From NCBI RefSeq assembly GCF_014695715.1, contig NZ_JACJOT010000002.1:62001-126000 (forward strand): a stretch of 64,000 bases of DNA, read 5' to 3'. Each line of letters begins with the position of its first letter. The first letter of the stretch is position 1. This DNA is from Microcoleus sp. FACHB-68 (GTDB lineage Bacteria > Cyanobacteriota > Cyanobacteriia > Cyanobacteriales > Oscillatoriaceae). The notes below the pieces were generated by a model. The model made no database searches. It saw nothing but the letters and a program-made list of their open reading frames with translations, and was not told where the DNA came from. Positions 22,088 through 63,507 of the stretch are shown piece by piece. A program made the translations under genes and the position numbers.

Positions 22088-25000
22088 TTACCGATAGAGC
22101 CAGACCCGCAGCAGTGAGAGCAACTGCTCAGTATCAACCGGCTTGGTAATGTAGTCAGACGCACCGGCTTCCAGACATTTTTCCCGATCACCTTTCATAG
22201 CTTTAGCCGTCAGGGCAATAATGGGGAGAGACCGGAAGTTAGAAATTTTGCGGATATGGCGCATAGTTTCATACCCATCCATTGTTGGCATCATTACATC
22301 CATCAAGACAACATCAATGTCAGATATTTTTTGCAACATCGAAATGCCATCAGAACCGTTTTCGGCATATAAGACCTGCATTTGATGGCGCTCTAACATA
22401 CTGGTGAGCGCGAAGATATTGCGGACATCGTCATCTACGATCAAGACTTTTTTGCCGACCAGAAGCGGGTCTATTTGATACAGCTTTTCGATCATCTGTC
22501 GTTTGGGTTCAGGCAAATTCTCTTGAACCCGGTGCAGGAACAAAGCGGTTTCATTAAATAGAGTTTCTGGCGAACCCAAAGCTTTAATGATGATGCTTTC
22601 AGAAATCCGCTTGAGTTCAAATGCTTGCTGTTCAGTTAAGCTTCTGTCGGTATAAACGATAATGGGTAGAGGCACAACACCCCGTGAGCCGGCGGTAAAC
22701 TCCTGAGTGAGCTGCTCAATCAGTTCTAACCCACTCATATCGGGTAGATCCAAATCGATGACGACACAATCGTAGTGCCGGCCTACCGCCTCACCCGTCC
22801 CTGCCTTTAGGGCTGAGAGCGCCTCCTCACCCGTTCCCACCGCAGTGGTTGCGACGTCGCTGTTACCGATCAAATCGACAATATTTTGACGCTGATTTTC
22901 GTTAACAACCACAACCAGCAAGTTCTTCACCGGACGCTCAACAAAACTTTTGATATTCACCAACCCCTCAATTAGCGCCTCGCGGGTAACAGGCTTTTGT
23001 AGATAAGCCAGTGCTCCCATTTTCAACCCCCGTTGCCGCGCCGCCTCAACCGTGAGAATATGAACCGGGATATGACGCGTTGCCGGGTCGTGCTTTAAGC
23101 GATCAAGAACCGTCCAGCCGTCCATTCCTGGCAGCCGGATATCGAGCATGATGGCGTGGGGTTTCAATTCGTGGGCCATCGCCAAGCCGGCTTCGCTACG
23201 CAGCGCCACCAACCCTTTAAAGCCGACCTGTCGTGCCATATCTAACAGGATGCGGGCGAAGTTCATGTCATCCTCCACAATCAACAGCACGCGATCGCCC
23301 GGATGAATATTATCGCGATCATCACTCAGTTGCTGCGAGATCGCTAAGGAGGAAGGGTCGTTCTTGGACTGTGCTAAGACTTCTGCCTCAGGAGTGCTGC
23401 TGGGGGTGGAATTCTCCGGATTCGCGGAGCGAAGCGACCAGCCTTCTTCCCTGCGCCTGTCTGGATTCCACTGCCGGGATTGTGGGAAATTGTTGCTGTG
23501 CCCCCCTTCGGAATCCCCGCGATCCAGCGACAAATAATGCAATTCTTCTGGCTTGGCAGGGTTCGCGGGAGGCATATAGGTGTGGGGCAAGTAAAGCGTA
23601 AAGGTACTGCCGTGGCCGAGGCTGCTAACTAAGACAATTTCTCCGCCGAGGAGTCGGGCGATTTCGCGGCTGATGGATAAGCCCAAGCCGGTGCCGCCAT
23701 ATTTGCGGCTGGTGGTGCCATCTGCCTGTTGGAAGGCTTCAAAAATGACTTTTTGCTTTTCAGGGGCGATGCCGATGCCGGTGTCCATCACCGAGAAACC
23801 AACGATCGTCTCAGCGCGATTTAATGTCTCCTGCTCAGGACTCCATCCTTGGGTTGCCAGCTCAACTCGCAACCGCACCTCTCCAGAGTCTGTAAATTTA
23901 AAGGCGTTGGAGAGCAGATTTTTCAGCACTTGCTGCAAGCGTTTCGAGTCGGTATAAATCGCCCTTGGCAGTTTCTCATCAAACACAAGGCTGAAGTTCA
24001 AGCCCTTATCTTGGGCGACTTGACGGAATGTTCGCTCCATCTGGTTCGACAAATCTGTGAACAGCAGCGGATCGATTTCCACTGACATGGTTCCCGATTC
24101 AATTTTGGCTAAATCGAGGATGTCATTAATTAACCCCAGCAGATCCGTGCCGGCAGAATGAATCGTGCGAGTGTATTCCACTTGCTTGGCGCTGAGATTG
24201 CCATCGGCGTTATCCGACAGTAGGCGAGCTAAAATTAACAAGCTGTTGAGCGGCGTCCGCAACTCGTGCGACATATTCGCCAAAAACTCCGACTTGTATT
24301 TAGAAGTAAGCGCCAACTGTTCGGCTTTCTCTTCCACAGAGCGTCGCGCCTGTTCAATTTCCCGATTCTTGCGTTCAACTTCCCGGTTTTGAATCGACAG
24401 CAACCGCGCCTTTTCTTCAAGTTCTTCGTTGGTTTGCTGCAACTGTTCCTGCTGGTTCTTCAGCAGTTCCTCAGAGGCTTTCAGCGATTGAGCTTGCTGT
24501 TCTAATCGCTTGTTCGTCTCTGTCAGTTCTTTTTGCTGAGTTTGCAGTTCTTCTGCCAGTGCTGTGGACTGTTTGAGTAATTCCTCAGTCCGCATACTGG
24601 CAGCGATTGTATTGAGCACGATGGCAATACTTTCAGTCAGTTGATCGAAGAATGTGAGGTGAATCTCACTAAAGCGCCGGAAGGAGGCTAATTCAATCAC
24701 CGCCGTCACTTGCCCCTCAAACAACACCGGCAGCACAACGGCATTGAGCGGAGTGGATTCCCCTAACCCAGAGCTGATTTTGATATAGTCGCTCGGCACC
24801 TCAGTCAGCAGAATTCGTTCCCTTTCCAAAGCACACTGTCCGACCAATCCTTCACCCAAGTGGAACTGATTCGCCAGATGCTTGCGCTCGCGATAAGCAT
24901 AAGTGCTGAGAAGTTTCAAAAAGGGTTGATGCGCCACACCGGCTTCCATGAGGTAGAACACCCCATGTTGGGCAGAAACCAATGGAGCCAATTCTGAGAG

Positions 25001-28000
25001 GATAAGTTTGGAAACCGTCTCCAAGTCTCGCTGACCCTGTAGCATCCGGGTAAACTTAGCCAAATTGGTCTTCAACCAGTCTTGCTCAGTGTTTTTCTGC
25101 GTTGTTTCTCGCAGGTTGGCAATCATCTGGTTGATGTTGTCTTTGAGGACGGCCACCTCGCCTTCTGCTTGGACGTTAATGGTTCGGGTCAAATCGCCCT
25201 TCGTCACGGCGGTTGCAATTTCAGCAATCGTTCGGATCTGGGTGGTTAAATTTGCTGCCAGTTCGTTCACGTTGTCGGTTAGCGCCCTCCAGGTTCCCGC
25301 CGCACCAGGCACTTTGGCCTGACCGCCCAATTTCCCTTCAATCCCCACTTCTCGCGCCACTGTGGTAACTTGATCGGCAAAGGTCGCCAGCGTGTCGATC
25401 ATCTCGTTGATCGTGTCGGCTAAGGTTTCAATTTCCCCTTTTGCCTCCAGCATCAGTTTTCGCTTCAAGTCACCATTGGCAACTGCCGTCACCACGCGGG
25501 CGATACCTCGCACTTGGGCGGTTAAGTTGCCGGCCATTGAGTTCACGTTGTCGGTGAGGTCTTTCCAGGTGCCGGCGACGCCCTTGACATCTGCCTGACC
25601 GCCTAATTTCCCTTCCGAACCGACTTCTCGCGCCACCCGCGTGACTTCTGAGGCAAACGAGCTGAGCTGATCCACCATGACGTTGATGGTGTTCTTCAGA
25701 TCCAAAATCTCGCCTTTGACATCGACGGTAATTTTCTTCGAGAGGTCGCCGTTTGCAACAGCTTTCGTCACTTCGGCAATGTTCCGCACCTGGGCTGTCA
25801 GATTGCCGGCCATTGAGTTCACGTTGTCGGTTAAGTCTTTCCAAGTGCCGGCGACCCCCTTAACATACGCCTGCACGCCCAACTTCCCTTCAGTTCCCAC
25901 CTCTCGCGCCACCCGCGTTACTTCCGAGGCAAACGAGCTGAGCTGATCCACCATGATGTTAATCGTGTTTTTCAGCTCTAAAATTTCACCTTTTACGTCA
26001 ACCGTGATTTTCTTAGACAAATCCCCGTTCGCTACAGCCGTCGTCACTTCCGCGATATTCCGCACCTGGGCTGTCAGATTACCGGCCATTGAGTTAACGC
26101 TATCGGTTAAGTCTTTCCAGGTGCCGGCCACCCCTCGCACTTCCGCTTGTACACCTAATTTCCCTTCGGTTCCCACCTCTCGCGCCACCCGCGTCACCTC
26201 TGAGGCGAAGGAGTTGAGCTGATCCACCATGACGTTGACCGTGTTTTTCAGCTCTAAAATTTCACCTTTTACGTCAACCGTGATTTTCTTAGAAAGGTCA
26301 CCATTTGCTACAGCCGTCGTCACAGCGGCAATATTTCGCACTTGGGCGGTTAATGAGCCGGCCATGAAGTTCACGCTATCTGTTAAGTCTTTCCAGGTGC
26401 CGGCAACGCCGCGCACATCTGCCTGACCCCCTAATTTCCCTTCCGAACCGACTTCTCGCGCCACCCGTGTTACTTCTGAGGCAAACGAGCTGAGCTGATC
26501 CACCATGACGTTGATGGTGTTCTTCAGCTCTAAAATTTCGCCTTTAACCTGTACAGTAATTTTCTTGGAGAGGTCGCCATTTGCGATTGCGGTTGCCACC
26601 TCTGCAATGTTCCGCACCTGGGCTGTCAGATTACCGGCCATTGAGTTCACGTTGTCGGTTAAGTCTTTCCAGGTGCCGGCTACCCCTCGCACTTCCGCTT
26701 GCACGCCTAATTTACCCTCGGTTCCCACCTCTCGCGCCACCCGCGTCACTTCCGAGGCAAACGAGCTGAGCTGATCCACCATGATGTTAATCGTGTTTTT
26801 CAGCTCTAAAATTTCACCTCTAACGTCTACGGTGATTTTCTTAGAGAGGTCGCCGTTAGCTACAGCCGTCGTCACTTCCGCGATATTCCGCACCTGGGCT
26901 GTCAGATTGCCGGCCATTGAGTTAACGCTATCGGTTAAATCTTTCCAGGTGCCGGCTACCCCTCGGACTTCTGCTTGTACGCCTAATTTCCCTTCCGAAC
27001 CCACCTCTCGCGCCACGCGCGTTACTTCTGAGGCAAAGGAGTTGAGCTGATCCACCATGATGTTGATGGTGTTTTTCAGCTCTAAAATTTCACCTTTTAC
27101 GTCAACCGTAATTTTCTTAGACAAATCCCCGTTCGCTACAGCCGTCGTGACTTCGGCAATATTCCGCACTTGGGCGGTTAATGAGCCGGCCATGAAATTT
27201 ACGCTATCGGTTAAATCTTTCCAGGTGCCGGCGACCCCCTTAACATCTGCTTGACCGCCTAATTTCCCTTCCGAACCCACCTCTCGCGCCACGCGCGTTA
27301 CTTCTGAGGCAAAGGAGTTGAGCTGATCCACCATGATGTTAATCGTGTTTTTCAGCTCTAAAATTTCACCTTTTACGTCAACCGTAATTTTCTTAGACAA
27401 ATCCCCGTTCGCTACAGCCGTCGTCACTTCCGCGATATTCCGCACCTGGGCTGTCAGATTGCCGGCCATTGAGTTAACGCTATCCGTTAAATCTTTCCAG
27501 GTGCCGGCAACGCCTCGGACTTCCGCTTGTACACCTAATTTGCCTTCGGTTCCCACCTCTCGCGCCACCCGCGTCACTTCCGAGGCGAAGGAGTTGAGCT
27601 GATCGACCATGATGTTTATGGTGTTTTTCAGCTCTAAAATTTCACCTCTGACATCTACGGTAATCTTCTTAGAAAGGTCGCCATTAGCTACAGCTGTCGT
27701 GACTTCGGCAATATTCCGCACCTGGGCGGTTAATGAGCCGGCCATGAAATTAACGCTATCCGTTAAATCTTTCCAGGTGCCGGCAACGCCTCGAACTTCT
27801 GCTTGTACGCCTAATTTCCCTTCCGAACCGACTTCTCGCGCCACCCGTGTCACTTCTGAAGCAAAGGAGTTGAGCTGATCCACCATGATGTTGACGGTAT
27901 TTTTCAGCTCTAAAATTTCACCTTTTACGTCAACCGTAATTTTCTTAGAAAGATCCCCATTAGCTACAGCCGTTGTCACTTCCGCAATGTTCCGCACCTG

Positions 28001-28885
28001 GGCTGTCAGATTACCCGCCATTGAGTTAACGCTATCCGTTAAATCTTTCCAAGTGCCGGCGACTCCGCGCACATCTGCCTGCACACCTAATTTGCCTTCG
28101 GTTCCGACTTCTCGCGCCACCCGTGTTACTTCTGAAGCAAAGGAGTTGAGCTGATCCACCATGATGTTTATGGTGTTTTTCAGCTCTAAAATTTCACCTT
28201 TTACGTCAACCGTAATTTTCTTAGAAAGGTCGCCATTAGCTACAGCTGTCGTGACTTCGGCAATGTTCCGCACCTGGGCTGTCAGATTACCGGCCATTGA
28301 GTTAACGCTATCCGTTAAATCTTTCCAGGTGCCGGCGACGCCTTGAACTTCGGCTTGCACGCCTAATTTCCCTTCTGAACCGACTTCTCGCGCCACCCGT
28401 GTTACTTCTGAGGCGAAGGAACTCAGTTGATCAACCATTGTGTTGACAATCTTGGCAGTTTGAAGGAATTCTCCTTTTAGGGGCCGGCCTTCTATTTCAG
28501 GTGCGATCTTTTGCGATAAATCACCATTTGCAACGGCCCGAATGACTCTGGCAGTTTCGGCTGTGGGCTGAACTAAATCTGTGATTAGAGTATTGACAGA
28601 ATTAACGCTTGCTGTCCAAGAACCGCCGGCGTTTCCAAGCGATGCCCGCTGGGTAATTTTGCCTTCTTTACCCACAACGGTGCCGATTCGCTCTAATTCG
28701 GCGGCCATCCTTTCATTAAGTTCGATGATATCGTTGAGCGTATCCGCAATTTTACCTGCTATGCCGGTTTGGTCGAGGGGCATCCGCACAGAAAAGTCAC
28801 CTTTCTTGACAGCGGCAAGAGTTCTTAATAGCTGCTTTTCATCTAAATCGTCTGTACGTTCTTGGACTGCTTGTGAGCTTGACAT
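22088..28885 (-). CDS. Cytosolic poly-HAMP hybrid histidine kinase
   Basis: A 2265-residue hybrid kinase without membrane helices. Two divergent N-terminal HAMP units are followed by a tandem array of 92-residue units, each containing a canonical half (NGDLSKKI...GEILELKNT) and a second HAMP-like half ([10 protein letters not shown]...GTWKDLTD). Ten are near identical and two more are divergent. Then come a GAF domain (~1270-1425), a coiled coil, HisKA with His1540 ([12 protein letters not shown]), HATPase, and three receivers. Receiver 1 has Asp1915 and receiver 3 Asp2196. Receiver 2 keeps the central Asp but has VNEN in place of the acidic pair. The order recalls fungal group III (Nik1/Os1) kinases, which sense osmotic stress with poly-HAMP arrays. 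Confidence 0.93.
25120..28440. repeat. 276-bp tandem repeats encoding HAMP units
   Basis: About twelve 276-bp units, ten of them near identical (roughly 25680-28440), each giving 92 residues. Codon-level identity between copies is high, suggesting recent duplication and continuing gene conversion. Copy number may vary between strains, and short-read assemblies could miscount it. Confidence 0.9.
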
Positions 28886-53427: not shown

Positions 53428-53895
53428 ATGATTGGTAACCTAAACTTAAGAAACAGGATTCTAATCGCCCGTGCTATTTTCGAGATTTTAGTCACCGTCT
53501 TGACAGAGCGCATTTACAGCAGCACCCTTCAAGTTTTGGACAGGTTAAAAGATATCCCAACTGAAGGAAAACCTTTTTTAAAAGAAAGCCATAGGCTGCT
53601 GGGCCTCGGGAAAATCACCCAGACACTCGAATGTTATTTTATTGCAAAATATAAAGAATTTTTAAGAAATAATGAACAAGTTTTCTACCAAAGACGAAGG
53701 CTAGAAGATCAAATAGACGCATTGATTGAACAGTCCCTCACTTTATTAAACACAGGCAAAGCATCTAGGCAATCGCAACTGAGTGGTGCCGGCATAGACA
53801 GCCGAATTATAGAGAAGCTTCCAAATATCCGCCATCAGGTCGCCCAGCCCAAAAGCCAACAGCTAGGCTCATCAGCAGCTATTCCGTTCACTTAA
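53428..53895 (+). CDS. Small hypothetical protein upstream of the cheA-like gene
   Basis: 155 residues, not recognised. Mainly helical: a hydrophobic helix at ~10-30 (ILIARAIFEILVTVLTERI), then amphipathic helices with many Lys/Glu/Gln, and a polar tail. No Cys clusters or known motif. It lies 94 bp ahead of the CheA-type gene and in the same direction, so it may be an operon partner. Coding potential is plausible but modest. Confidence 0.55.
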   Translation: MIGNLNLRNRILIARAIFEILVTVLTERIYSSTLQVLDRLKDIPTEGKPFLKESHRLLGLGKITQTLECYFIAKYKEFLRNNEQVFYQRRRLEDQIDALIEQSLTLLNTGKASRQSQLSGAGIDSRIIEKLPNIRHQVAQPKSQQLGSSAAIPFT

Positions 53896-53989: not shown

Positions 53990-56900
53990 ATGATGATCGA
54001 AGATGAAGAACTCCGAATTACCTTCAAAGATGCCAGCGAAGAACATTTGCAGAAACTTGATGAAGGGCTGCTGCATTTAGAAAAATACCCCGACGATCTA
54101 AGTGGGCTAAATGAATTGATGCGGGAAGCCCACAGCCTGAAAGGAGATGCCAATATGTTAGGCATCAAAGATGTCGGCACCCTAGCCCACCAGCTAGAAC
54201 ATATTCTGGGCACCATAAAGCGCAGCGAAGCCAGCCTCACCCCAGCACTATGTGATCGCTTGTCGGGTGGGTTAAATGCGATTCGTCAACTCGTCCGCGA
54301 AGCCGTCACTGGCGAACCCAGCGGCATCAACACATTTTATGCCCTTGCTCACTTGATGGGAGCCGATACTCAACCCCCAAAACCCCTACAGGTTAAGGAA
54401 GAAACGGTTGAAATTATCAAGCCAACCCCAGAAACAAAGCCCGCACCGGCAGCCCCGACTCATACAAGTGAACAAGAGAGCGAGGTAGCAGCACAACAGC
54501 ACATCACACACCCTAGGCGAGAAACACCTGATCGCTGGCAAAATCATAGATCGCCTATCCCCAACCCTCAACTCCCAACCCCCGCTGAAAACTCACAACT
54601 CATCAGCGGGCAAAAAAGTCATCGCTATATTGAAGACGACGAACTTCGTACCACCTTCAAAATCGTCTGTGAAGAGCATTTACAAAAACTTGATCGCGGC
54701 TTGCTCTTTTTAGAAAAATTCCCCAACGACAATGCCAAATTAGAAGAAATGTTGCGAGAAGCCCACAGCATCAAAGGTGATGCCGGAATGCTGGGCGTCA
54801 AAGATGTGGGCACCCTCGCGCATCAGCTAGAGAATATTTTCACGGCAGTCAAACTTGGCGAACTCAGCTTTACCTCAGCTCTTTGCGATAACTTATCTTA
54901 CGGATTGGATGGCATCCGCCAACTTGTTCACGAAGCCGTCACTGGCGAACCTACCGGCACCAACCCAGCAGACGTCCTCGCCCGGATGTCACCTATCCAG
55001 CAGACGTCCCCATCTGCTGCAACACTTGTGCCCACCCTTGCTGAGGATGGAAACATGATCGCTGCCAGCTCATCAGCAGCGCCAACTGATAGGATGCCGG
55101 CTCAAGTTTTACAAACACCAAACATCACCGCTAACCAGCAACCTCAGCCATTAACCGGCAACGGGTACTTCTCAGCCGCGCCGGTTCAACCGGCAGCCAC
55201 CGGCTTGCAGTTTCCCCCCCCGACTGATGCCGTCAAAATCAGCAGTGATACCTACCGCATCGAAACCATTCGCGTTGAAACTCGAAATCTCGATGCCCTC
55301 ATGACTCAAGCCGGTGAATTAACCGTCGCCAAAATTCGGATCGCCCACCGACTCGGCGAAATCGAGCAAATCGTCAGCTTGTGGGAAGAGTGGAGCCGGG
55401 ATGTTTTTGTCAATCGTTTTGCCCTCGACGAATTAGAGCGGGGCTTGAAAGTCGAAGTTCCAAACGGGCGAAACTCCGACATCAACCCAAAGCTTGCGGG
55501 TAACTTCCACCTGCGCCCCTCAGCTCGCAATGGCACGCTTAAGCAAGTACAAAACTTGCACCATCGAGCTGAAGAACGCTTAGAGCAGTTAGGTTCGCTC
55601 GTTAATCGCCTCAGAAATGCCGTTTATGAAGACACTGCCCGACTCGACACCGTCGCCGATGAATTAGAGGAAGGAATTCGCACCCTGCGCCTGCTGCCTC
55701 TGTCCACAATTTTTAATTTATTTCCCCGCATGGTGCGCGATCTCGCCAGACAGCAAAGCAAAGAAGTAGAACTCGTGATTGAAGGAGGAGAAACCAAGGC
55801 AGATAAGCGCATTTTGGAAGAAATGAAAGATCCTTTAATGCATATCCTTCGCAATGCGATTGATCATGGCATCGAAACACCGGCAGAGCGCTTGCAAATG
55901 GGCAAACCGCCAGTAGCCACCATTCGGCTGCGAGGTTACCAAACCGCCACCAACATTATTATTGAGGTTGCTGATGATGGGCGGGGTTTGGACATCGAAA
56001 GTATTAAACGCACGGCAATCAAACGTGGCATCTGTCGGGAAGAAGAACTGGCAACCATGACACTTCATCAAATTCAGGCTCTGATCTTTGCGCCCGGTTT
56101 TTCAACTCGAACATTTGTAACAGAAGTCTCCGGCAGAGGTGTGGGACTCGATGTGGTGCGAACCAATGTCGAGCACCTCAAAGGCAGCATTCATGTAGAA
56201 TCGGCACCCGGAAAGGGATGCACGTTGCGCCTGAATCTGGGAACGAGCCTGTCTACAGCCCATGTGCTGTTGGTTGCCGTTAATGATATTGCCTATGCTT
56301 TGCCGGTGGAGTTTGTGCAAATGGCTCGGCTGGTGGCTGAGAGTGAGATTTTTACAATTGAAGGCCGCGATACCATAATCTTAGATGGTCAACCTATATC
56401 AGTTGCGCCACTGGCAAATTTGTTGGAAATGCCCTCACTCAACAATAATTTCTCGAAACCAGCGGATGAGGGACAAGAAATAAGAAACGACAAGCAACAG
56501 CCTTGTATTATTTTGAAGATAGGTGAAGAATGCCTGGGGCTGCTGGTAGATGCGCTGCTTGATGAGCAAGATGTGGTGTTAAAACCTCAAAGTAAATTGC
56601 TCCAGCGAGTACGAAATGTTGCCGGCGCAACGATTTTGGGCACGGGTGAAGTCTGTATGGTGTTAAATCCTCAGGATTTGATCAAGTCGGTTCGCCGGCC
56701 ATCTAGGGGGATTAAACCCGTCACTGCAACGGAGCCGGCAGCGGAAAAACAAACGATTCTGCTAGTGGAAGACTCGATCGCCACTCGTACTCAAGAAAAA
56801 CGCATTCTCGAATCTGCCGGTTATGAAGTTGTTACCGCCGTCGATGGATTGGATGGCTACAATAAACTGAAAACCCGCTCTTTTGATGCGGTCGTCTCTG

Positions 56901-57109
56901 ATATTCAGATGCCGAATTTAGACGGCTTGGGCTTGACGGTAAAAATTCGCCAACACAAGGAATATAAAGAATTACCGATTATCCTAGTCACCTCCCTCGC
57001 TACAGACGAGGATAGAAGAATTGGTGCACAAGCCGGTGCTAACGCCTACATTACAAAAAGCACTTTTAATCAAGAAGTGCTGTTAGAAACATTGAGACGG
57101 CTAGTTTAA
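53990..57109 (+). CDS. CheA-type hybrid histidine kinase with two Hpt domains
   Basis: A 1039-residue cytosolic hybrid kinase. Hpt1 (~1-110) has His48 and Hpt2 (~213-325) His259, both in AHS(L/I)KGDA. A Pro/Gln-rich linker (~330-420) leads to the CheA dimerisation and HATPase region (Asn622 in LRNAIDHG, VADDGRGLD, GRGVGLDVVR), a CheW-like domain (~760-890) and a C-terminal receiver with Asp971 (SDIQMPNLDG). Its AHS-type Hpt domains and attached receiver match cyanobacterial CheA-like proteins used for phototaxis and pilus control. AAGGAG precedes the ATG. Followed 128 bp later by cheB; no CheW, CheR or MCP genes are nearby. Confidence 0.93.
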   Translation: MMIEDEELRITFKDASEEHLQKLDEGLLHLEKYPDDLSGLNELMREAHSLKGDANMLGIKDVGTLAHQLEHILGTIKRSEASLTPALCDRLSGGLNAIRQLVREAVTGEPSGINTFYALAHLMGADTQPPKPLQVKEETVEIIKPTPETKPAPAAPTHTSEQESEVAAQQHITHPRRETPDRWQNHRSPIPNPQLPTPAENSQLISGQKSHRYIEDDELRTTFKIVCEEHLQKLDRGLLFLEKFPNDNAKLEEMLREAHSIKGDAGMLGVKDVGTLAHQLENIFTAVKLGELSFTSALCDNLSYGLDGIRQLVHEAVTGEPTGTNPADVLARMSPIQQTSPSAATLVPTLAEDGNMIAASSSAAPTDRMPAQVLQTPNITANQQPQPLTGNGYFSAAPVQPAATGLQFPPPTDAVKISSDTYRIETIRVETRNLDALMTQAGELTVAKIRIAHRLGEIEQIVSLWEEWSRDVFVNRFALDELERGLKVEVPNGRNSDINPKLAGNFHLRPSARNGTLKQVQNLHHRAEERLEQLGSLVNRLRNAVYEDTARLDTVADELEEGIRTLRLLPLSTIFNLFPRMVRDLARQQSKEVELVIEGGETKADKRILEEMKDPLMHILRNAIDHGIETPAERLQMGKPPVATIRLRGYQTATNIIIEVADDGRGLDIESIKRTAIKRGICREEELATMTLHQIQALIFAPGFSTRTFVTEVSGRGVGLDVVRTNVEHLKGSIHVESAPGKGCTLRLNLGTSLSTAHVLLVAVNDIAYALPVEFVQMARLVAESEIFTIEGRDTIILDGQPISVAPLANLLEMPSLNNNFSKPADEGQEIRNDKQQPCIILKIGEECLGLLVDALLDEQDVVLKPQSKLLQRVRNVAGATILGTGEVCMVLNPQDLIKSVRRPSRGIKPVTATEPAAEKQTILLVEDSIATRTQEKRILESAGYEVVTAVDGLDGYNKLKTRSFDAVVSDIQMPNLDGLGLTVKIRQHKEYKELPIILVTSLATDEDRRIGAQAGANAYITKSTFNQEVLLETLRRLV
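54553..54605. repeat. Intragenic short-repeat linker in the cheA-like gene
   Basis: CCCCAACCCTCAACTCCCAACCCCC-like repeats encode SPIPNPQLPTPAENSQ between Hpt1 and Hpt2; they look like the genome's intergenic repeats inserted in frame. Confidence 0.5.
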
Positions 57110-57136
57110 CGGTCATTGATCATTAGTGATCAATTC

Positions 57137-57204
57137 TTGGTTGTTGTTCAAAAACATCCCAGAAATATCGAGTGTTGGTTGTTGTTAAAAAACATCCCAG
57201 AAAT
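57137..57204. repeat. Two 30-bp direct repeats upstream of cheB
   Basis: TTGGTTGTTGTT(C/A)AAAAACATCCCAGAAAT occurs at 57137-57166 and 57175-57204, 38 bp apart. Could be a binding site pair or a repeat remnant. Confidence 0.6.
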
Positions 57205-57237
57205 GGCGGTTGACAGGCGGGTAAGGACAAATGACAA

Positions 57238-58404
57238 ATGACAATTCGTGTTTTGCTGGTAGAAGATTCACCTGTGGCGTTAACCATTCTCAAACGGATG
57301 CTAGCCTCATCCCCTGATATTACAGTCGTGGGAACGGCTCGCACCGGCAAGGAGGGTTTGGCCCTCATTCCTCAACTTCAGCCTCAAGTGATCTGCACAG
57401 ACTTGCATATGCCTCAAATGGATGGGTTGGAATTCACCCAAGAAGTGATGGCAAACTTCCCGCGCCCAATTTTGGTGATTAGTTCTTCAGTACAGCCAGA
57501 AAATACCCACACAGTCTTTCGTCTGCTGCAAGCAGGGGCGGTGGATGTGTTTCCCAAACCGCATGGTGCGCTTGGCCCAAATTATGAATCCATCCGCCAA
57601 GAATTGATCAGCAAAATTAGGATACTATCTGGCGTGGCTGTTTTTACCCTGCGGCGAAGAAAAACCACGGCTGAACCAGTATCTTTTAACCCTCAGCCAA
57701 AGCAGCTGATCGCCAAAGACACAAAGGATCGCGAGAGCAAAATTCCAAAACAACAAACCCACGCCAAACAACCCCCACCTGTCCCCCCCTCTCTCCCTCA
57801 GCAGTCAGCACTCAGCAGTCAGCACTCACCACCCAAAAAAATATTGGCAATCGGGGCATCCACTGGCGGTCCCCAAGCGCTGCACACCATTCTCACTCAA
57901 CTGCCGGCAAATTTCCCAGTGCCGGTGATTTGTGTGCAACACATCAGCGAGGGGTTTTTAAAAGGATTGGTGGATTGGTTAAATGGGGAGTGTTCTCTTT
58001 CCGTAAGAATTGCCACGGCGGGTGAGTATCCATCTGCCGGCACGATTTATTTTCCACCAGAGCAGCACCATTTAGAATTGGATAACAAAGGCCGGTTTCA
58101 CTGTTCGTCTGCGCCACCCGTCTCTGGGCATCGCCCCTCTGTAACCGTTACGTTTAACTCGGTGGCTAATTTTTACGGCAAGTCGGCTGCGAGTGTCCTC
58201 TTAACAGGGATGGGCCGAGACGGTGCAGATGGAATGCTTAGTATCAGCAAAGCCGGCGGTCTCACCATCGCTCAAGATGAGAAGAGTTGCATCGTTTTTG
58301 GGATGCCGAAAGAAGCGATTGCCCTCGGTTCCGCTCAGTATATTTTGCCGCTGACTGAAATTGCTCCGGTGTTATTAAACAAGATCTTGATTAAAAAAAT
58401 ATAG
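57238..58404 (+). CDS. cheB: Chemotaxis-type protein-glutamate methylesterase CheB
   Basis: 388 residues: receiver with Asp55 (CTDLHMPQMDG), a long variable linker (~140-197), and a methylesterase domain with the Ser208 (IGASTGGPQ), His235 (VQHIS) and Asp328 (GMGRDGADGM) triad. It removes methyl groups from chemoreceptors, or deamidates them, when phosphorylated by the CheA-type kinase upstream. The linker contains an in-frame tandem of CTCAGCAGTCAGCA (57797-57824), an intergenic-type repeat. No CheR is seen. Confidence 0.94.
   Translation: MTIRVLLVEDSPVALTILKRMLASSPDITVVGTARTGKEGLALIPQLQPQVICTDLHMPQMDGLEFTQEVMANFPRPILVISSSVQPENTHTVFRLLQAGAVDVFPKPHGALGPNYESIRQELISKIRILSGVAVFTLRRRKTTAEPVSFNPQPKQLIAKDTKDRESKIPKQQTHAKQPPPVPPSLPQQSALSSQHSPPKKILAIGASTGGPQALHTILTQLPANFPVPVICVQHISEGFLKGLVDWLNGECSLSVRIATAGEYPSAGTIYFPPEQHHLELDNKGRFHCSSAPPVSGHRPSVTVTFNSVANFYGKSAASVLLTGMGRDGADGMLSISKAGGLTIAQDEKSCIVFGMPKEAIALGSAQYILPLTEIAPVLLNKILIKKI
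57797..57830. repeat. Heptamer repeats in the cheB linker
   Basis: Two exact 14-mers CTCAGCAGTCAGCA (each two heptamers), then CTCACC. In frame, encoding QQSALSSQHS. Confidence 0.75.
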
Positions 58405-59136
58405 GATTTTGTTCTTTTTTGATTCAATTTTATTTCCTGCACAAACAATGATGGCTCATTCATTCTTCGGAAAGCATGAGTCATCCGCTCGTAAATCTCA
58501 ACAAAAACTTTGCCGGCATCCCCTTCACTCCTGGTATTTCAGCAACCATTCTACAATATTGCAACGCCGGCAGCCGTTAAAGTTTTGCTGGAATTCAAAG
58601 CCACATCTTAAAGTTTTAAAAAAGCTACCTTTATTTAGTTGATAAATTAAAAATCTAAAATTTAAAATGTATTACGATAAGGTGTTGTGTCTAGCGAAGG
58701 AACGGTGAAGCCAAAATCGGACTTGAGAATGTCTGCTAGTCCATAATGTTGACAACGTATAACAGTTTCTTTTGCTGCTCTATAGATCCCCCCAGCTCCG
58801 GGGAGAGAAAGACATTTGTAGGGTTTTAAATTCAAAGCAGAATTAAAAGCTCAGTTTTAGCAAGGTAGATTAAGTGTAAAATCTTATTGCAATAATTGTT
58901 TAATTGTGATATTAGATAACCAAAGAAGTGTAGGGTGCCGGCAGTTACCCAATCAGCAACTTTTTACTATATGCTCAGAGAATAAAACCATTTGGATAGT
59001 GGAGTTAGTAACAAAAGGTAAAGCATTTTGAACGAAGACTTGTGCCTAAAAAGCATAAGATTCCCATAATATTATTTAAAGTGTTAAGACTGAATTAATG
59101 TTTTAACTGGGGTTTAAGCCCTAAACAAAGCCGGCT
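58405..59136. other. Intergenic region, no gene seen
   Basis: 732 bp of AT-rich sequence after cheB. A short CCCC/GGGG hairpin at ~58787-58802 is the only structure noted. It should hold the promoter of the downstream GGDEF gene. Confidence 0.6.
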
Positions 59137-62100
59137 ATGCCCGTGAAAGCAATGCTTTTATACGAGGAAGCAAAAGCGGCTATTAAACAGTTCCACTCTT
59201 CTGATTTTAATGCAAACCATTACAAGCTTGAAGTCGCTGTGCGTGAAAGGAAAGCTGACCTGGGATGGGATCAAACTTTATACGAATTTCTTCCGACTAT
59301 CTGCTTCACGCTCGACGCAGCGGGTGTTGTTATTGATGTTAATCAATTTGGGGCAGCACGTCTTGGATATCCTGCCGGCCAGTTAATTTTAAAATCAATG
59401 GCCCAGATTCTTCATCCTGAAGACCGGCAACAATTAGAAGCGCTCAATACTGCTTATTGGCAACAGCTCGATCAAGTTGTAAGTTGGGAAAGCCGGCTTG
59501 TCTGTGCGAATGGTCAAATTCTCTGGGTAAAAGCCAGCGCCCGTATAGTGCCGGTTTCAGGTGAGGCTGGAAAAGGAGGAGACGATTACTTCAACCCTCA
59601 ACCTTCCTCCGTCATTCTTTTGGTTTGCGAAGACATCACCCAAGCCAAGCAGGCAGAACAACAGCAGCGCGAATGCGAAAAACGCCGATGCCGGCAAACG
59701 CGCACCCTCACAGAATTGGCAAAAAGCCAGATCCTCAACCGGGGCGATCTTGAAGCTGTTGTGAGAGAAATTACAAAAACTGTCGCTGACACGCTTGAGG
59801 TTAAGCGCGTTAGCGTTTGGCTGTATAAAGCTAATAACTCAAAAATTGTCTGCCTCGATCTTTACGAAGCGCCAGACAAGCATCATTCTCAAGGCTGGGT
59901 GTTAGAAGCCGCCAATTGTCCCACTTATTTTCAAGTGCTGGAAAAACAAACAACGATAGTAATAAATCACACCTGTAGCGATTCGAGAACAAAAGAACAG
60001 TCAGATTCTTATTTTTTAAAGCTAGGCATTACAGCTTTTTTACACGTACCCATTCGGCTGCACGGCCAGATAGTAGGCATTATTTGTTACGAACATACCA
60101 CTTCTGAAGATTCTGGCAAAGAATACGAGCGCCAGTGGATGCCAGATGAAGAGTCTTTCGCCATTACAAGCGCCGATTTCATCGCCCTAGCGTTAGAAGC
60201 TGATAGCAGATCGCAAGCAGAGATGCAACGCAGAGAACGCGAACAGATTCTGTTAAGCCAATATTACGAGCAACTTGAGGAAGCGGTTGAAAAACGTACC
60301 GCCGAACTCACTCAGCTCAACGAACAATTGCAGGAAGAAATTATCAAGAGAAGCCAGACAGAGGCGATGCTGCGAAACCAGCAACAAGAACAGCAAATTA
60401 TCTTTGATTCTGTGCCGGCGCTGATTTGGTATAAAGACACCCACAACCGGCTCTTACGGATTAACAAAACTGCCTCGGTTGCAACAGGGGTGCCGGTAGA
60501 AGCGATAGCAAGCGCATCAATTTATGAAATTTCGCCCAACGAAGCAGATCGCTATTACCAAGACGACTTGGAAGTGATCAATTCTGGCTGTCCTAAAAGG
60601 GGAATTATCGAACCACTGCAAACCCTCACCGGGGAAAAACTTTGGATTCGCACTGATAAAATTCCCTACCGTGACAGTGCCGGCAATATCGTTGGAGTCA
60701 TTGTTTTTGCGGTTGAGATTACTGAATTAATACAAGCCGAGGAAGAATTGAGGCAATATCGTGATCACCTGCAAGAGAAAGTAGACGAACACACCGCCGA
60801 ACTAAGACGGGCGAATGAACAATTGCAAGAGGAAATTGCCTGCCGTATCTTAGCAGAGGAGGCGCTCAAGCGAGAGCGAAATTTATTTATTGGAGGGCCA
60901 GTTACTGTATTTCGCTGGCTAGCAACAGAAAATTGGCCAATTGAATATGTCTCACCGAATATTGCTCAATTTGGCTATGAAGCCAGTCAATGCAGCAACG
61001 GTCAATTGTTTTATGCCAGTATTGTTCATCCAGACGACTTAGAAAGAGTATTAGCAGAAGTTAAAGCTTATAGCGAAGCTGGGGCTACTTCCTTTGAACA
61101 GGATTACCGCATTGTTCAAGGCAATGGGGAAAGCCGGTGGGTGTATGACTTCACCGTAGTTGTGCGAAATGAAACGGGAAAAATTACTTACTATGAAGGA
61201 TATATTTTAGATATTACGCAACGCAAGAAAACCGAGGCTGCCTTGAGGGAAAGTGAGGAACAGCTACGGCGGTTTTATGAAGCATCTTTTGAAGCAATTG
61301 TGATCATTGAGAAAGAAAAGATTGTAGATGTTAATAAAAATTTAACCAATTTATTAGGCTACGAATCATCCGAAGCCATCGGAATGAATGTGATGGAATT
61401 TGTTGCCCCGGCATTACATCCGCTCGTAAAAGAAATCATTGCGTCAGGCACAGAAAAAACTTATGAAAGTGTTTGTATCAAAAAAAATGGAAGCGCGTTT
61501 CCCGTAGAAGTTCGGGGAAAAGCAATCACTTATCAAGGCCGCTTAGTTCGGGTGATCGCGATGCGAGACTTAAGCGAACGCAAACAGGCAGAAGCGGAAC
61601 TTGAGCGCTCGCTTTCTCTGCTTCATGCCACGCTAGAATCAACTGCCGACGGCATCGTTGCCATTAACATAGCAGGAGAAATTATTAGCTTTAATCGTAA
61701 ATTTTTACAGATGTGGGGCATTCCTGATGAATTCATGGCCTCGCAAAATAAAACTCGCCTGCTCGCCTTGGCGATCGAGCAGTTGCGAGATCCCGAAGCT
61801 TTCTTGCGAAGAATTAGGGAACTGCCCAACCAGGTAGATGCCGAACTTTACGACATTTTAGAGTTAAAAGACGGTCGGATTTTTGAGCGCTACTCACTTC
61901 CCCAACGTGCCGGTGAAAAAATTATTGGCAGAGTGTGGAGCTTTCGAGATATCACAGAACCTCAGCGAATACAAACCAGCTTGCTGGAAAGTGAAAGACG
62001 TTTTCGTGCAATTTTCAACTCCTCGTTTCAATTTATCGGACTGATGAACCCAGAGGGCACGCTGCTGGAAGCGAACCAGACGGCACTTAATTTTGGCGGA

Positions 62101-63507
62101 CTCACCAGCGCCGATGTGATCGCTCGCCCGTTTTGGGAATGCCGGTGGTGGGTGAGGGATCATCCGCCCACCGAGGAAGCCCTAGAGAGGGCCAGAGGGG
62201 GCGATGGCGACCTCAATCGCACTCAGAAACGCTTGAAAGAGGCGATTTCCCAAGCCGCTGCCGGCCAGGTTGTTCGCTACGAGGTGGAAATGCTTGGGGC
62301 GGGGGATAAAGTCGCAATCATAGACTTTTCCATTAAGCCGGTGTTCAATGAAGCCGGTGAAGTCGTCTTGCTGATTTCTGAAGGCCACGATATTACCGAA
62401 CGCAAGCATTCAGAGATTGCACTGCGGCAGCAAGCAGAGAGAGAACGGCTGCTCGGTGCGATGGCCCAGCGGGTTCGTCAATCGTTGGATTTAGAAGAAA
62501 CGCTTAACACCACAGTGGCAGAAGTGCGACAACTGCTACAGGCAGATCGCGTGATCATTTTCCGCTTTGAATCGAATTTTGATGGAGTGGTTGCGGTGGA
62601 GTCGGTGACAGGGGGTTGGCCGGCAATTCTAGCCACCAATATTCACGACCCCTGTTTTGCGCCGACTTATGCAAAGCTTTACAAACAAGGTCGCATCCGC
62701 GCCACTGACAATATCTATACAGCCAATATGAGTCAGTGTCATGTCAACTTACTGGCTCAGTTTCAGGTTCAAGCAAATTTAGTCGTTCCGATTTTGCTAA
62801 GCGAACAAGCCCTGCAAAATCCCCCATCCCCAACTCGAAATCAGTTGTGGGGATTGCTGATTGCCCACCAGTGTAGTGGCCCTAGGCAATGGCAAACTTG
62901 GGAGGGTGAGTTACTGATGCAACTCACAGAACAGGTGGCGATCGCGATTCAGCAGGCGCAGCTTTACCAACAACTACAGGCGGCTAACCAGGAGTTAGAG
63001 CGTCTTGCGTCTTCAGATGGCCTGACGCTGCTTGCCAACCGTCGCCAGTTTGATAGCTATCTTAAGCAAGAGGTGCGGCGTCTGGCGCAAGGAACCGCTC
63101 CCATCTCCCTGATTATGTGCGATATCGACTGTTTCAAGCCCTACAACGATACTTATGGCCATCAAGCCGGTGATGCTTGTTTGCAGCAGGTTGCTGGGGC
63201 AATTCGTAATGCGCTCCAGCGACCGGCAGATTTGGCTGCTCGGTACGGCGGTGAGGAATTTGCGGTGATTTTGCCGGATACGGACGCTGCCGGTGCAGTT
63301 CGAGTTGCTGAGGCGATTCGCACCAGCGTGCGCTCTTTGCAAATTCCCCACGCTAAATCAGCGGCGGCATCTGTGGTGACTTTGAGTTTGGGGGTTGCCA
63401 GCGCATCGGCTCACAACACAACACCGGCACAGTTAATTGCCGCAGCCGATGAAGCCTTGTATCAAGCCAAGGAAGGGGGACGCGATCAGGTTGTGGTTAA
63501 CGATTAA
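59137..63507 (+). CDS. PAS/GAF/cyanobacteriochrome-type GAF - GGDEF diguanylate cyclase
   Basis: A 1456-residue cytosolic protein: PAS1 (~45-175), GAF1 (~205-365), coiled coil, PAS2-PAS6 (~425-1095), GAF2 (~1100-1280) and GGDEF (~1290-1455). GAF2 carries HDPCF (Cys1173, the DXCF-type second Cys) and QCH (Cys1201-His1202, the bilin-attachment pair), then QANLVVPIL and WGLLIAHQC, as in DXCF-type cyanobacteriochromes. The output has GGEEF (1371-1375) and the product-inhibition I-site RPAD (1362-1365) five residues upstream, so c-di-GMP synthesis is likely active and self-limited. Expected role: light-controlled c-di-GMP production. Chromophore binding is inferred from motifs. Confidence 0.88.
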   Translation: MPVKAMLLYEEAKAAIKQFHSSDFNANHYKLEVAVRERKADLGWDQTLYEFLPTICFTLDAAGVVIDVNQFGAARLGYPAGQLILKSMAQILHPEDRQQLEALNTAYWQQLDQVVSWESRLVCANGQILWVKASARIVPVSGEAGKGGDDYFNPQPSSVILLVCEDITQAKQAEQQQRECEKRRCRQTRTLTELAKSQILNRGDLEAVVREITKTVADTLEVKRVSVWLYKANNSKIVCLDLYEAPDKHHSQGWVLEAANCPTYFQVLEKQTTIVINHTCSDSRTKEQSDSYFLKLGITAFLHVPIRLHGQIVGIICYEHTTSEDSGKEYERQWMPDEESFAITSADFIALALEADSRSQAEMQRREREQILLSQYYEQLEEAVEKRTAELTQLNEQLQEEIIKRSQTEAMLRNQQQEQQIIFDSVPALIWYKDTHNRLLRINKTASVATGVPVEAIASASIYEISPNEADRYYQDDLEVINSGCPKRGIIEPLQTLTGEKLWIRTDKIPYRDSAGNIVGVIVFAVEITELIQAEEELRQYRDHLQEKVDEHTAELRRANEQLQEEIACRILAEEALKRERNLFIGGPVTVFRWLATENWPIEYVSPNIAQFGYEASQCSNGQLFYASIVHPDDLERVLAEVKAYSEAGATSFEQDYRIVQGNGESRWVYDFTVVVRNETGKITYYEGYILDITQRKKTEAALRESEEQLRRFYEASFEAIVIIEKEKIVDVNKNLTNLLGYESSEAIGMNVMEFVAPALHPLVKEIIASGTEKTYESVCIKKNGSAFPVEVRGKAITYQGRLVRVIAMRDLSERKQAEAELERSLSLLHATLESTADGIVAINIAGEIISFNRKFLQMWGIPDEFMASQNKTRLLALAIEQLRDPEAFLRRIRELPNQVDAELYDILELKDGRIFERYSLPQRAGEKIIGRVWSFRDITEPQRIQTSLLESERRFRAIFNSSFQFIGLMNPEGTLLEANQTALNFGGLTSADVIARPFWECRWWVRDHPPTEEALERARGGDGDLNRTQKRLKEAISQAAAGQVVRYEVEMLGAGDKVAIIDFSIKPVFNEAGEVVLLISEGHDITERKHSEIALRQQAERERLLGAMAQRVRQSLDLEETLNTTVAEVRQLLQADRVIIFRFESNFDGVVAVESVTGGWPAILATNIHDPCFAPTYAKLYKQGRIRATDNIYTANMSQCHVNLLAQFQVQANLVVPILLSEQALQNPPSPTRNQLWGLLIAHQCSGPRQWQTWEGELLMQLTEQVAIAIQQAQLYQQLQAANQELERLASSDGLTLLANRRQFDSYLKQEVRRLAQGTAPISLIMCDIDCFKPYNDTYGHQAGDACLQQVAGAIRNALQRPADLAARYGGEEFAVILPDTDAAGAVRVAEAIRTSVRSLQIPHAKSAAASVVTLSLGVASASAHNTTPAQLIAAADEALYQAKEGGRDQVVVND

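Follow-up and report, generated by a model that had tools for sequence, protein, structure and literature searches.

A multi-sensor protein of Microcoleus sp. FACHB-68 with a cyanobacteriochrome-type GAF domain joined to a GGDEF domain

Known systems and layout of the protein

The fusion of a cyanobacteriochrome (CBCR) GAF domain to a GGDEF domain is not new. The published precedent is SesA (Tlr0924) of Thermosynechococcus, a blue-light-activated diguanylate cyclase, and the title of a reference in PMC8846402 reports light-regulated synthesis by a bidomain SesA construct. IsPadC and other phytochrome-linked cyclases also combine a light sensor, a coiled-coil linker largely in heptad steps and a GGDEF domain, the sensor of the IsPadC type being PAS-GAF-PHY, as a passage of PMC9587094 describes. 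The GAF domain of TePixJ (3vv4, 4fof, 4glq) belongs to a protein whose record is labelled methyl-accepting chemotaxis protein, whereas the protein considered here is a candidate cyclase. WspR is a response regulator by its record names and not a GAF protein; it shares the GGDEF domain.

The window, that is, the whole analysed stretch of 64,000 nucleotides of Microcoleus sp. FACHB-68, contains ORF 59137-63507 on the forward strand, encoding a sensor protein of 1456 amino acids. The original prediction concerned the interval 62452-63507, which runs from Leu1106 to the stop codon and comprises the last 351 residues. It described a CBCR-type GAF domain (GAF2) joined directly to a GGEEF domain with an intact RxxD I-site, and this is what the ORF contains. 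All motifs that it named are present: DPCF at 1171-1174, SQCH at 1199-1202, NLVVPIL at 1214, WGLLIAHQC at 1238, RPAD at 1362 and GGEEF at 1371. The Pfam matches on the protein span 1118-1271 (GAF) and 1292-1451 (GGDEF). The region before GAF2, scanned piecewise with Pfam, has the order PAS1, GAF1, PAS2-6, each PAS domain scoring above the curated cut-off of a PAS model. Thus the predicted second GAF domain is found upstream, and there are six PAS domains rather than five. The features are as follows.

59137..63507, forward strand: whole gene, PAS-GAF-PAS(x5)-GAF(CBCR)-GGDEF, 1456 aa; start codon uncertain
59335..59556, forward strand: PAS1 (Pfam PAS_3, 42.3 bits)
59746..60195, forward strand: GAF1 (Pfam GAF, 62.1 bits); its sequence has neither DXCF nor a Cys-His pair
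60403..60729, forward strand: PAS2 (Pfam PAS_4, 45.7 bits)
60946..61203, forward strand: PAS3 (Pfam PAS_3, 63.2 bits)
61294..61578, forward strand: PAS4 (Pfam PAS_9, 58.4 bits)
61618..61803, forward strand: PAS5 (Pfam PAS_8, 30.7 bits against a cut-off of 21.8)
62014..62406, forward strand: PAS6 (Pfam PAS_4, 43.7 bits)
62452..62892, forward strand: GAF2, CBCR-type GAF domain, residues 1106-1252 (homology to CBCR GAFs and predicted fold)
62647..62658, forward strand: DPCF motif with the second cysteine, Cys1173 (TePixJ alignment; Cys in 27/27 homologues with a letter there)
62737..62742, forward strand: canonical Cys1201 and His1202 (TePixJ alignment; both in 27/27 homologues with a letter there)
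62893..63018, forward strand: predicted linker helix, 42 residues, after Trp1252 to Asp1294 (length count and model)
63010..63489, forward strand: GGDEF diguanylate cyclase domain (Pfam GGDEF, 175.5 bits; WspR match)
63220..63231, forward strand: I-site RPAD (RxxD), residues 1362-1365 (motif in sequence)
63247..63261, forward strand: GGEEF active-site motif, residues 1371-1375 (motif in sequence)

The start of the ORF is uncertain, because codon 10 of the aligned frame is a stop in a same-genus genome, G002 (L113, from 6478). The true translation start may lie downstream of the ATG at 59137. A scan of 58300-59250 gave three promoter-like sites, compared to 2.5 in shuffled sequences, and no terminator-like sites. 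The longest ORF listed in the window lies elsewhere (22088-28885, minus strand, 2265 aa).

The TePixJ GAF domain was searched against 388 genomes of the class. Matches at E <=1e-65 were found in seven, with 100% identity in genome G088 and 69-71% in the others. The best match of G088 to the GAF2-GGDEF module lies in a 777-residue open frame. If this protein is counted from the GTG at offset 4, the arginine of its RxxD motif is residue 676, and the I-site arginine of SesA is given as R676 in a passage of PMC5871770. We therefore take the protein to be SesA, given the identical TePixJ match in the same genome and the position of this arginine.

The comparison with SesA covers the GAF-GGDEF piece. 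The two proteins are 45% identical over 346 residues, with no gap in the linker. They share a DXCF GAF domain joined directly to GGDEF, the motif IHDPCF, a cysteine spacing of 28, RxxD, GGEEF, and a linker of 42 residues from Trp to Asp. However, the canonical cysteine is followed by Tyr in SesA and by His here, and SesA has 12 fewer residues before WGLL than GAF2. The N-terminal halves also differ: that of SesA presumably consists of CBS and PAS domains, whereas the 1456-residue protein has six PAS domains and a GAF domain.

The GAF2 and GGDEF domains

The best matches of GAF2 among solved structures are 6oap (2551g3, E 1.4e-50), miRFP670nano (6mgh, 3e-40), the RcaE-type 8k9o (5.3e-39) and TePixJ (3vv4, 9.8e-35). 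The record of 6oap (2551g3) reads dual sensor histidine kinase. The closest solved GGDEF domain is that of WspR (3bre, E 3.9e-50). Given such strong matches to solved CBCR GAFs and to WspR, the identity of the two domains is not a matter of chance.

GAF2 has the sequence features of DXCF cyanobacteriochromes. The second cysteine lies in an Asp-Xaa-Cys-Phe motif, DPCF, which aligns to the DPCF of TePixJ. The canonical cysteine, which in this group precedes His or Tyr, aligns with its neighbour (Cys1201-His1202) to the Cys-His of TePixJ. Both cysteines coincide in the alignment that the original prediction had proposed, and they are 28 positions apart in both proteins. The modelled domain has the CBCR GAF fold (Foldseek match to TePixJ 4glq, TMt 0.90) and is followed not by PHY but by GGDEF according to Pfam. 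The closest solved sequences, 2551g3 and miRFP670nano (6oap, 6mgh), lack the second cysteine and have DQYF and DRYF instead.

Loss of other residues of the bilin pocket had been named as an observation that would speak against the prediction, and the comparison with TePixJ is mixed. Asp492, Cys494, Arg507, Cys522, His523 and Asn535 (TePixJ numbering) are retained, whereas His498, Trp499 and Gln526 are replaced by Thr, Tyr and Leu. The compared set, Asp492 to Asn535, is named around the chromophore in a passage of PMC6955287, where R507 comes from a neighbouring molecule through a crystal contact. The replacements of Trp499 and Gln526 do not speak against bilin binding, since Tyr occupies the former position in 57 of the 71 aligned GAF rows, Phe (35) or Leu (25) occupies the latter in 60 of 71, and Leu is found there in the bilin-binding 2551g3 too.

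Conservation was assessed in 28 homologues, two from the same genus and 26 from loci L024-L046 and L071-L073, each column counting those with a letter. D1171, C1173, F1174, R1186, C1201, H1202 and N1214 are invariant in all 27 such homologues. However, the same holds for C164, C239, C1246, C1328, C1332 and C1348, and thus invariance does not set the two chromophore cysteines apart. C56, C280, C317, C485 and C569 vary, several of the cysteines outside the chromophore positions being retained in the same-genus pair only.

The gene is under purifying selection. Pairwise comparison of the three same-genus genes gave omega values of 0.18-0.19 for the whole gene, 0.08-0.14 for GAF2, 0.11-0.19 for GGDEF, 0.285-0.345 for PAS1-GAF1 and 0.02-0.04 for the 41-codon linker; these values are rough, as the stretches are short, and the first ten codons were left out owing to the in-frame stop in G002.

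The GGDEF domain looks active, judging from its motifs. In the GGDEF alignment, which comprises 38 of the fetched GAF-GGDEF pieces, GGEEF and the catalytic columns D-x-D, F-K, N-D, G-H and G-D are invariant in 38/38 rows. RPAD lies five residues before GGEEF (RPAD-LAARY-GGEEF), at the place of RSSD in the WspR alignment. The protein thus has an RxxD I-site, which is a common but not a required feature of diguanylate cyclases. The position of the I-site arginine could be read in 26 full-length-type homologues; it is R in the two from the same genus and E in the 24 that are more distant. Since the latter lack the arginine, feedback inhibition is not common to the whole group. In a wider set of homologues RxxD occurs in 24 of 54 rows.

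The genome has one match to heme oxygenase and one to ferredoxin-dependent bilin reductases. The latter is PcyA (359.7 bits compared to the cut-off of 206 of the PcyA model). With these two enzymes the genome can make phycocyanobilin, which is therefore the expected bilin.

The absorbed colour is less certain. The residue two positions before Asp1171 is Ile1169, as in TePixJ. Trp at this place is the mark of red/green (XRG) CBCRs, according to a passage of PMC11284453; it is absent here, and Cys1173 is present. However, the same source mentions XRG members in which a DXCF cysteine has reappeared, so the CBCR lineage does not follow from the motif alone. A GAF tree of 58 rows (eight additional ones and 50 from the set of 71, a choice that omits most rows of the Microcoleaceae type) leaves 26 of 55 inner branches open; the bootstrap is unsettled, and SesA and TePixJ themselves stand apart. 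For this reason no colour subfamily is claimed.

The linker and the coupling of the domains

The linker from Trp1252 to Asp1294 has 42 residues. Linker lengths were compared in the window protein and 103 loci, using anchors from profile models built without any of the linker. We dropped 15 linkers already counted, two rows in which over 80 residues separate the modules, and the remaining rows lacking one or both modules. In L105, where the Trp anchor falls in an insertion, a hand count gave 42. The resulting 81 rows with distinct linkers have 42 residues in 78 cases, 35 in two and 56 in one, so that the length is a multiple of seven in 81/81; these rows are not independent, having a common ancestry and having been selected for their similarity to the window protein. 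Judging from the aligned columns, cysteines occupy both chromophore positions in 47 of the 81 rows and not in 34, and the lengths are the same. Since the 34 rows lacking one or both cysteines retain the heptad length, the linker is evidence of rigid helical coupling and not of light.

In the 38 linkers of the GGDEF alignment one heptad register stands out over positions 7-42, with a core-hydrophobic mean of 0.55 (for example, positions 17, 24, 28, 35, 38). The next-best registers reach 0.38, and one of them (11, 18, 25, 28, 35, 39) overlaps the best at 28 and 35. A second register is thus possible but weak.

An AlphaFold2 model of GAF2-GGDEF, built as a single chain without bilin from 38 aligned sequences, has a mean pLDDT of 89.8 and a pTM of 0.66. 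It contains one helix between the domains (model residues 152-190) and a low-confidence loop (123-131). The GAF part matches 4glq at 1.4 Å, and the isolated WspR GGDEF domain (3i5b) is matched with TMt 0.93 at 1.8 Å (both Foldseek). VIA-align gave 3i5b with Z 29.0 (1.4 Å, 167 residues) and 6mgh with Z 23.3 (1.4 Å, 147 residues). The 50 entries listed by VIA-align do not include TePixJ, which is present among the Foldseek rows. The model thus appears to join a TePixJ-like GAF domain to a WspR-like GGDEF domain by one helix. The top six Foldseek rows are chains of IsPadC, with an rmsd of 23-25 Å. This is no superposition, so the domain arrangement of the model differs from that of IsPadC.

Published work explains phytochrome and LOV cyclases by a model of register switching (parts of PMC9587094 and PMC12805367). 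For phytochrome-linked cyclases an excerpt of PMC9587094 gives linker lengths that differ by sevens in 54% of cases and are -4 in 38%; lengths of -4 and +2 occur there, whereas none of the 81 rows considered here is off-heptad. Among the papers listed in a literature search, none dealt, by its title or abstract opening, with linkers of CBCR-GGDEF proteins. We tentatively propose, giving this somewhat less than an even chance, that cyclases linked to CBCR-type GAF domains form one mechanical class, in which the connecting helix varies in seven-residue steps and the bilin GAF domain drives the cyclase through a register shift within a fixed coiled coil, the rule being stricter than in phytochrome-linked cyclases. 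The 1456-residue protein would be a many-input version, its six PAS domains and GAF1 loading the same spine, with I-site feedback varying by lineage. If the heptad-step linker holds widely, it would link CBCR cyclases to the register-switch model of phytochrome and LOV cyclases and provide a rule for building light-switched cyclases.

Function, alternatives and distribution

The observation of GAF2 joined to GGDEF is confirmed, and the first reading of it is supported in part. Its core, a dual-cysteine CBCR GAF domain fused to an intact diguanylate cyclase domain, is well supported, as the protein is built like SesA and the genome can make phycocyanobilin. By its sequence, the protein is probably a multi-input diguanylate cyclase in which, as in SesA, light acts through a bilin on GAF2 to control the activity of the neighbouring GGDEF domain. 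Cys1201 would hold the bilin, and Cys1173 would join and leave its C10 during the photocycle, producing a blue-absorbing state. The change in the bilin would shift the linker coiled coil of a dimer, and the two GGDEF halves would thereby approach each other or separate. At the RxxD site c-di-GMP may limit its own synthesis. The same helical spine presumably also receives other signals, from GAF1 and the six PAS domains. By analogy with the bidomain SesA construct, reported to be light-regulated, GAF2-GGDEF alone may be enough for light control. The colour and the behavioural effect, given in the original prediction as blue/green light and perhaps a choice between motility and sessile life, are inferred, as is the direction of the switch.

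For the colour, blue/green is not secured, since 2551g3, miRFP670nano and RcaE match GAF2 ahead of TePixJ and the tree is open. The same observations agree with a photoactive cyclase of another colour, carrying PCB or a twisted PVB and switching blue/teal, blue/orange or blue/red, and DXCF-type GAFs with green, teal, yellow or orange tuning are reported in a passage of PMC5240096. However, the DXCF motif, the Cys-His core and the isoleucine are as in TePixJ and IHDPCF is as in SesA, both of which are blue/green. We give such a colour an appreciable chance, though well short of even; it is a variant of the light-regulated cyclase and does not exclude it. It is also conceivable that light matters little or no longer, GAF2 binding or having once bound a bilin while the PAS domains or GAF1 mainly control the cyclase. 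GAF2 is preceded by seven other sensor domains, which could dominate in the full-length protein, and the 34 linker rows lacking one or both cysteines come from relatives that retain the linker. However, the homologues show no variation at either cysteine or in the pocket core, and GAF2 evolves more slowly than PAS1-GAF1, which makes this explanation unlikely.

The gene neighbourhood suggests one more explanation. Directly upstream of the cyclase gene, at 53990-58404, lie cheA (two Hpt stretches, kinase, CheW, receiver) and cheB, and the order cheA-cheB-DGC-LOG-IMPDH is retained in all three same-genus genomes examined (that of the window, L113, L114). The protein could then serve cheA-cheB as a c-di-GMP receptor or scaffold and not as a cyclase. 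However, its GGDEF catalytic motifs are intact, cheB is separated from the cyclase gene by 732 bases, and neither cheA nor cheB was found at E 1e-10 in the 26 more distant loci (L024-L046, L071-L073), whose flanks are often short (ten bases in L043). We consider this role very improbable, and because cheA-cheB is found in none of the 26 loci, the neighbourhood was not used further to judge the function. Pfam scans of ten neighbours found neither cheR nor a receptor gene. The 155-aa ORF 53428-53895 before cheA has no Pfam match and is 70-74% identical in the same-genus genomes, compared to 92-93% for cheA and cheB.

If the protein is a light-regulated cyclase, light would be one of several signals setting c-di-GMP in this organism. 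The genome has 31 GGDEF rows and 22 EAL rows (one gene being split over two rows in each), and 41 rows are matched by GAF2. PilZ had no match in the whole genome, whereas the Synechococcus elongatus control was positive. Two matches to ComFB were considered as candidate c-di-GMP receptors; however, ComFB is reported to bind c-di-AMP, and no effector is proposed.

Matches to GAF-GGDEF at E <=1e-60 occur in 42 of 60 genomes, its own included; 34 genomes cover nearly the full query and eight have partial matches only. The nearest named record is the metagenome-assembled Microcoleus vaginatus WJT46-NPBG5 (91% identity). This record and G001 were counted once, and L023 and L114 are likewise taken as one genome. 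The protein may be regarded as a conserved many-domain relative of SesA, added in a Microcoleus-like lineage, with GAF2-GGDEF as the compact piece. Nothing was built on relatives in the plasmid collection, as the best 40 of at least 5000 matches cover nearly always the GGDEF part only; two of these 40 cover at least 80% of the query (Gloeothece verrucosa, 41% identity, and a Deinococcus, 27%).

Two variants were observed among the relatives. The Microcoleaceae-type homologues (L024-L045, L071-L073) have DCCF, with two adjacent cysteines, and lack RxxD; GGEEF is retained where the sequence reaches it. In L012 (G000:C5:85216-88560), a frame of 1181 residues, the rows suggest GGDEF and EAL domains first and then a dual-cysteine CBCR GAF domain (DCCF, PCH), the reverse of the usual order.
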